Shown here piece by piece: positions 23,265 through 24,073 of a stretch of 64,000 bases of DNA (its first letter is position 1; every line of letters begins with the position of its first letter). The notes below the pieces were generated by a model. It was given only the letters and a program-made list of their open reading frames with translations. It searched no databases and was not told where the DNA came from. The position numbers and the translations under genes were made by a program. The DNA lies in contig PLXE01000040.1 of assembly GCA_003151335.1 (NCBI GenBank), forward strand, positions 1 to 64,000, in the 5' to 3' direction. Source of the DNA: Acidobacteriaceae bacterium (GTDB lineage Bacteria > Acidobacteriota > Terriglobia > Terriglobales > Acidobacteriaceae).

Positions 23265-23294
23265 TTGAGGTGAGGTCGGACCTCAGGTTAGACT
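23265..23294 (+). promoter_or_regulatory. candidate promoter of the fluoride riboswitch operon
   Basis: TTGAGG (23265-23270) and TAGACT (23289-23294) separated by 18 bases. A transcription start about seven bases downstream would fall exactly at the first base of the riboswitch (23301). The spacer contains a short perfect inverted repeat, TGAGGT-CGG-ACCTCA (23271-23285). Each hexamer matches the consensus at four of six positions, so the call is plausible rather than firm. Confidence 0.45.
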
Positions 23295-23300
23295 TAATCG

Positions 23301-23371
23301 TGGCGATGGAGTTCGCCGTTAACCGCCTGCGGGCTGATAACTCCTACCAAGTAAGCGGGAGAGCTCCATCG
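23301..23371 (+). promoter_or_regulatory. fluoride riboswitch (crcB motif) with translational expression platform
   Basis: The aptamer at 23302-23347 matches the crcB-motif consensus: GGCGATGGAG, TTCGCC, TTAACCGCC, GGCTGAT and ACTCCTAC in order. Downstream, GAGCTCCATCG (23361-23371, including the first base of the GTG start codon) is complementary over 11 positions (one G-U) to CGATGGAGTTC (23304-23314) inside the aptamer. Without fluoride this helix would bury the start codon and part of the ribosome-binding site (GGGAG, 23357-23361). With fluoride, aptamer folding should free them. Control is therefore inferred to be translational. Confidence 0.93.
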
Positions 23372-23742
23372 TGAACTATCTGTGGATCGCCTTAGGCGCG
23401 GTTGCAGGCGCCAGTGCGCGTTACTTCCTCAGCGGATATGTCGCCCGCGTGTTCGCAACCACCTTTCCCTACGGCACCCTTCTCATCAACGCCACCGGCA
23501 GCCTGGTGCTTGGCTTCTTCCTGGTTCTTGCCGGAGAACGCATGCTGATCGATCCTCGCTGGCGGCTGCTGGTTGCCATCGGCTTCTGCGGCTCCTATAC
23601 AACATTTTCCAGCTACGCCTTCGAAACGTTCGCCTACATGGAGCAGGGACAGTGGGCGCTGATGGCGATAAACATTGTGGCCAGCAACGCGCTCTGTCTG
23701 GCCGCCGTCGTCGCGGGCGCAGCCATCGCGCGGGGGTTGTAA
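23371..23742 (+). CDS. crcB: fluoride channel FluC (CrcB)
   Basis: Dual-topology membrane channel that exports fluoride. The 123-residue protein has four membrane helices and the family motifs GASARYFLSG, FPYGTLLINATGSLVLGFF and GFCGSYTTFSSYAFET, whose phenylalanines and central asparagine line the pore. The start is GTG at 23371, directly controlled by the riboswitch. The next gene (DUF190) begins two bases after the stop, so both are under fluoride control. The single gene is consistent with a homodimeric channel. Confidence 0.96.
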   Translation: MNYLWIALGAVAGASARYFLSGYVARVFATTFPYGTLLINATGSLVLGFFLVLAGERMLIDPRWRLLVAIGFCGSYTTFSSYAFETFAYMEQGQWALMAINIVASNALCLAAVVAGAAIARGL

Positions 23743-23743
23743 A

Positions 23744-24073
23744 ATGGCAACTCCTATGGCTGTACAGGTAACCATGTATCTCACGGAGGGCGATTCCTGG
23801 CATCACCGTCCGCTGCACTTGGAAGTGCTGAAGTATCTGCGCGCGGAAAACGTTGCCGGCGCCGTGGCCTTCCACGCGGTCGCGGGTTTCCAGGGCCGCA
23901 GCAGCGTTCAGACCGCCCATCTGGTTGAGGCAGGAGGCGACCTGCCGGTTGTGCTTACCTTTGTCGATACCGACGAGCACGTCTCGCGCGTCCTTCCCAA
24001 GCTGCGAGAGATGGCAGCGCATCGCCTCATCGTCCGCGAAAATGTGGTGATCGAGCAGGGCAGCCTCGACTGA
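23744..24073 (+). CDS. DUF190 family protein
   Basis: A 109-residue cytoplasmic protein of the DUF190 family, related in fold to PII-like regulators and often encoded next to crcB. It shows the family opening VQVTMYLTEGDSWH, then EVLKYLRAENVAGA and VLTFVDTDEHV. The ATG at 23744 follows the crcB stop by one base, with GGGGG upstream in the crcB end; ATG 23756 is an alternative. Co-location suggests a regulatory role in fluoride export, but none is established. Confidence 0.85.
   Translation: MATPMAVQVTMYLTEGDSWHHRPLHLEVLKYLRAENVAGAVAFHAVAGFQGRSSVQTAHLVEAGGDLPVVLTFVDTDEHVSRVLPKLREMAAHRLIVRENVVIEQGSLD

Follow-up and report, generated by a model that had tools for sequence, protein, structure and literature searches.

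A predicted translational fluoride riboswitch in Acidobacteriaceae with a pairing arm fused to the fluC start codon

Introduction

In Bacillus cereus, the terminator of the fluoride riboswitch captures the 3' strand of the aptamer pseudoknot. In the transcriptional crcB riboswitches of B. cereus and Thermotoga petrophila, the expression platform overlaps the aptamer and competes with the pseudoknot by ligand-gated strand displacement (PMC11077080, PMC13273304). Displacement of a weak pseudoknot is known for transcriptional fluoride riboswitches (PMC11077080), and terminators overlapping the motif were described by Weinberg et al. (PMC2864571). Hertz et al. 2026 (PMC13273304) modelled terminator platforms only, with two translational examples as controls; the fluoride riboswitch of Pseudomonas syringae serves there as a translational control. 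Whole-riboswitch covariation work on fluoride found 17% of the tested variants to be functional in a transcription assay (PMC13273304). In translational riboswitches in general, a ligand-dependent choice between two helices sets the access to the ribosome binding site (PMC2258182).

Here we describe a leader in a 64-kb stretch of Acidobacteriaceae DNA (the window; all positions refer to it). It shares its aptamer class and the competition with the pseudoknot with the B. cereus and T. petrophila riboswitches. Those end in an intrinsic terminator, whereas none is predicted here; instead, the alternative helix is predicted to take up the 5' strand (P1 and loop 1) and to mask the start codon. The Pseudomonas eriC fluoride riboswitch (plasmid copies L281 and L282), which is described as translational, resembles this leader in aptamer class and in having a fluoride-export gene downstream. 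It differs in that a predicted downstream hairpin takes the 3' pseudoknot strand (GAUGCCUACAGA with UCUGUAGGCGUU), while the leader of the window uses the 5' strand. This leader has the choice between two helices in common with translational riboswitches in general, but its arm merges with the start codon and duplicates a portion of the aptamer's own pseudoknot strand.

Results

A covariance model search (cmscan) matched the fluoride riboswitch aptamer RF01734 at 23293-23353 on the forward strand, over the full model length, with 56.1 bits against a gathering score of 34 (E 7.2e-13). This is the sole fluoride aptamer copy detected in the genome of the window. P1, P2 and the pseudoknot between loop 1 and the 3' strand can all be formed (Table 1), and 99.2% of their cells are paired in an alignment of 37 related leaders. 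The aptamer is separated by 17 nt from the GTG start of fluC and thus stands ahead of a fluoride-related gene, CRCB/FluC, which is followed by a DUF190 gene. By its sequence, the leader belongs to the class RF01734 and is a predicted fluoride sensor. The initial annotation had already placed a fluoride riboswitch ahead of fluC, and the RF01734 and PF02537 matches bear this out. Its range of 23301-23371 was slightly off, as the aptamer match starts further upstream and the sequestered region takes in the GGGAG at 23357-23361. At 23339, the Rfam consensus GAUGACUCC is replaced by GAUAACUCC in the window and in about half of the leaders with an arm (see below). This changes the last pseudoknot pair from U-G to U-A; among the 37 leaders, UA is found in 21 and UG in 16.

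The FluC protein has 123 amino acids, and its closest relatives, with 93-94% identity, are found in Acidobacteriaceae metagenome-assembled genomes. The DUF190 gene is probably co-transcribed with fluC; mutS2 lies on the opposite strand and points away. The candidate promoter scores under the threshold of the promoter scan. In 37 of 78 family leaders, a -10-like TANNNT lies 6-9 nt upstream of P1 (at one of these spacings), and it is rare elsewhere; going by this spacing, the RNA therefore probably begins at the aptamer. A perfect palindrome, TGAGGTCGGACCTCA, occupies 23274-23288 between the proposed -35 and -10 elements and is partly retained in loci L032 and L034. It could be a repressor site.

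Table 1. Positions of the predicted features of the fluC leader and of the genes downstream of it.
Feature	Position	Strand	Description	Evidence
Candidate promoter	23265-23294	+	-35 TTGAGG 23265-23270, -10 TAGACT 23289-23294	proposed from sequence
P1 hairpin	23302-23317	+	23302-23305 with 23314-23317, loop 23306-23313	Rfam alignment; 100% of cells paired, 37 leaders
OFF helix, 5' strand	23303-23314	+	common to P1 and pseudoknot loop	12 pairs with 23361-23372 in minimum-energy fold
Pseudoknot 5' strand GGAGTT	23308-23313	+	partners 23339-23344, six Watson-Crick pairs	100% paired, 37 leaders
OFF helix extension	23316-23320 with 23354-23358	+	overlaps part of Shine-Dalgarno region	minimum-energy fold of window sequence
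P2 hairpin	23325-23334	+	23325-23327 with 23332-23334	Rfam alignment; 96.4% of cells paired, 37 leaders
Pseudoknot 3' strand AACTCC	23339-23344	+	six Watson-Crick pairs with 23308-23313	
Shine-Dalgarno-like GGGAG	23357-23361	+	9 nt upstream of start codon; alternative partner CTCCT 23341-23345	
OFF helix, 3' arm	23361-23372	+	partial copy of 3' pseudoknot strand; reaches into start codon	
fluC, CRCB family fluoride channel	23371-23742	+	GTG start	Pfam PF02537, E 5.7e-28
DUF190 gene	23744-24073	+	adjoins fluC 3' end	Pfam PF02641, E 1.7e-25

The initial annotation noted that CGATGGAGTTC at 23304-23314 is complementary to GAGCTCCATCG at 23361-23371 in all 11 positions, one of them G-U, with the second strand ending in the first G of the start codon. 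Both observations hold, as the single wobble pair is U23312 with G23363, and 23371 is the first G of the fluC GTG. The complementarity extends one step further, by a twelfth pair, a wobble (G23303-U23372), and the lengthened helix covers the start codon up to its second base. Its 5' strand uses three bases of the 5' side of P1, the entire pseudoknot loop and C23314. The ligand-binding fold needs the same bases 23303-23314; because of this overlap, the predicted aptamer fold and the predicted 12-pair helix (the OFF helix) cannot coexist, in agreement with the mutual exclusivity that had been proposed. The alternative helix would thus mask the start site and exclude the aptamer fold, as expected of a translational platform. 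For the inner helix that extends it, we make no claim of conservation in relatives.

We estimated how often such a helix arises by chance. An equally good helix was found in 26 of 20,000 dinucleotide shuffles when a 20-nt start region was considered, in 5 of 20,000 for a 28-nt region, and at a handful of other places elsewhere in the 64-kb window (both strands). In a single sequence, such complementarity is evidence of modest weight; its recurrence among the sequences of relatives makes it strong.

Folding by transcript length predicted the arm helix only once 23369 is transcribed, with an estimated energy then close to that of the pseudoknotted fold. At 23373, the best fold has -29.9 kcal/mol compared with -14.6 for the aptamer stems, or approximately -25.0 after a generous pseudoknot term is added. 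These energies leave out fluoride, Mg2+, ribosomes and the loop cost of the pseudoknot, and therefore speak to plausibility only. A fluoride-locked pseudoknot could keep the start site open, and a weak one could be displaced.

Terminator prediction found no intrinsic terminator-like site on the forward strand from the aptamer to 23929, in line with the terminator-free mechanism claimed at the outset. A terminator-type fluoride riboswitch was also considered and rejected; no hairpin with a U run overlapping the 3' pseudoknot strand is predicted in the leader.

In the family sample, 168 of 200 genomes contain RF01734; in the phylum sample, 100 of 297 do. From the fetched set, we collected 140 loci with an aptamer followed by fluC, of which 110 are distinct, and clustering at 90% similarity left 78 clusters for which a start could be assigned. 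The start codons were set by a rule that makes a few evident mistakes (e.g. L147), and the counts are thus approximate. An arm was called when the ten bases directly preceding the start codon had at least seven matches to GAACTCCATC. By this measure, a near-copy of the arm (GAACTCCATC followed by GTG) stands directly before the start codon in 37 of the 78 distinct leaders. The helix reaches p≤0.005 against the shuffles of the same leader in 36 of 78, and in 33 of the 37 leaders with an arm the predicted fold joins the P1/loop strand to the start region by 9 pairs or more. Among fluC genes of the family genomes that lack an aptamer, the arm was found in 0 of 8, the best match being 6 of 10. A strict pattern (ACTCCTAC, 5-35 nt, GGAGNACTCCATCGTG) gave one match over 396 genomes of the phylum; it misses the window itself and is too strict. 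Judged from these leaders, the arm is conserved in many relatives.

In the alignment of the 37 leaders, the OFF helix is paired in 96.8% of cells, compared with 29.5-51.8% when the strands are slid, although the rows were selected for the arm, which favours the higher value. No double compensatory changes were found in this alignment because the aptamer freezes the 5' strand, which is nearly invariant. L047 has one double change, in which A to G in the loop is matched by U to C in the arm. Most changes fall in the arm, C to U and A to G predominating, and these keep the pairing; over distinct arms, 29 of 36 transitions keep the pairing where 7 of 11 is expected (p=0.023). The arm is recognisable although the remaining spacer can barely be aligned across relatives. 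Its location is fixed at the start codon, and past the part that resembles the pseudoknot strand it continues into complementarity to P1 (ATCG). The start codon is GTG in 33 of 37 leaders with an arm and in 13 of 41 others (Fisher p=1.9e-7, uncorrected for relatedness); on a tree, the test of this association had only 3 supported pairs and no power. The association fits a predicted pairing of the first G with P1.

There are also variants among the relatives. Five loci (L009, L011, L013, L025 and L026) form a related group with a longer leader and an extra hairpin (CTTCCAGCC...GGCTGGA...GGAAG in L009). Their arm, CGAACTTCATG, finishes with the ATG start codon itself; the design is the same in a modified form. 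Some relatives have many fluoride aptamers, with 14 matches in genome G114, 14 in G169 and 11 in G159 (loci include L019 and L193), and several divergent pairs of aptamers lie approximately 150-250 nt apart. By eye, the reading frames downstream of these copies resemble a HyfC-type membrane subunit, a universal stress protein and an inorganic pyrophosphatase.

Most leaders without the arm have a second platform (e.g. L008, L145, L233 and L243). It is like the leader of the window in its aptamer, its fluC gene and in not needing a terminator, but it has no start-codon arm. Instead, the Shine-Dalgarno sequence GTAGGAG pairs with CTCCTAC of the aptamer (GUAGGAG with CUCCUAC in the RNA), that is with the 3' pseudoknot strand, with a median pairing probability of 0.965. 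The counterpart pairs of the window (GGGAG 23357-23361 with CTCCT 23341-23345) are kept in 92.4% of cells in the relatives with an arm, and in the window itself the mean probability is only 0.06 for the Shine-Dalgarno bases. In many of these relatives, the freed 3' pseudoknot strand is predicted probably to capture the Shine-Dalgarno region. Of 34 distinct aptamers taken from an outgroup phylum, 25 have such 3'-strand pairing and 16 have five consecutive T within 60 nt. Helices of the 5' strand as strong as the OFF helix occur in 3 of these 34, compared with 58 of 127 in the family, and none of the three is shaped like this arm.

Discussion

The leader is very likely a translational ON riboswitch for fluC. 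The riboswitch class, together with the absence of any predicted terminator, leads us to infer the translational action, the fluoride response and the ON direction. Of the start-codon-sequestering switch that the initial annotation proposed, the arm gains support in that it is kept in relatives and is missing before fluC genes without an aptamer; the response to fluoride, its direction and the level of control keep this indirect basis. Transcription would start at or adjoining P1, and the aptamer would fold first. When fluoride is absent, the pseudoknot would stay weak, and once the RNA is out through the start codon, the arm, which nearly replicates the 3' pseudoknot strand, would invade the loop and P1. 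Either the 3' pseudoknot strand, now free, or the 3' strand of P1 would pair with the Shine-Dalgarno sequence, and ribosomes would be blocked from starting. With fluoride and Mg2+, the locked pseudoknot would withstand the invasion and leave the start site open, and FluC would be made and would export fluoride. A terminator would play no part.

The arm helix might be secondary, and translation might be regulated mainly by pairing of the 3' pseudoknot strand with the Shine-Dalgarno sequence, the arrangement predicted for other leaders of the family. The bases for this are present in the window (CTCCT 23341-23345 with GGGAG 23357-23361), relatives with an arm preserve the corresponding pairs in 92.4% of cells, and leaders without one depend on such pairing (median probability 0.965). 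We consider it unlikely, as the mean probability for the Shine-Dalgarno bases of the window is only 0.06 and the extended arm helix, at -24.4 kcal/mol, is more stable than the combined structure at -18.8 kcal/mol. It also leaves the conservation of the arm without a reason. The leader might instead control transcription, for example through attenuation that depends on Rho or on pausing, or else RNA stability, and the arm helix would be one of the states involved. This would agree with the best-studied fluoride riboswitches being transcriptional (PMC11077080, PMC13273304). The absence of an intrinsic terminator-like site from the aptamer to 23929 and the placement of the arm exactly at the start codon in relatives make this very improbable.

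Shared ancestry or chance could in principle have left a complementarity without a function. The leaders are related, the significance in a single sequence is modest, and the 37-leader alignment has no double compensatory changes. Against this, the arm is recognisable while the remaining spacer is barely alignable, it is fixed to the start codon and continues into the P1 complementarity (ATCG), fluC genes without the aptamer lack it, and most of its transitions preserve the pairing. A helix that is only such a by-product is therefore hardly to be expected, and we retain the translational switch as the preferred reading.

It is plausible, if not quite probable, that the unbound leaders of the family undergo a double strand swap. 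Each of the two pseudoknot strands would find its partner in a downstream sequence that mimics the other: loop 1 and P1 would pair with the spacer and start codon, and the 3' strand would take up the Shine-Dalgarno sequence. Fluoride platforms would then be of two kinds, this one and that of the 3' strand. In open papers on fluoride riboswitches (translation, start codon, Shine-Dalgarno, RBS, Acidobacteria), a description of the arm platform was not found; the 2012 Science paper (PMC4140402) lay outside this search. A family-conserved platform that captures the 5' strand and is fused to the start codon is thus, provisionally, a new layout of a known class.

If the double swap is true, evolution would shape the start region, including the GTG, to imitate the aptamer. 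The predicted translational platform has a consensus that can be spotted by eye (GGAGAACTCCATCGTG before fluC) and occurs in one family alongside a second platform. This lets one ask how one aptamer gains different read-outs, and whether a riboswitch may dictate the spacer and the start codon of its gene.
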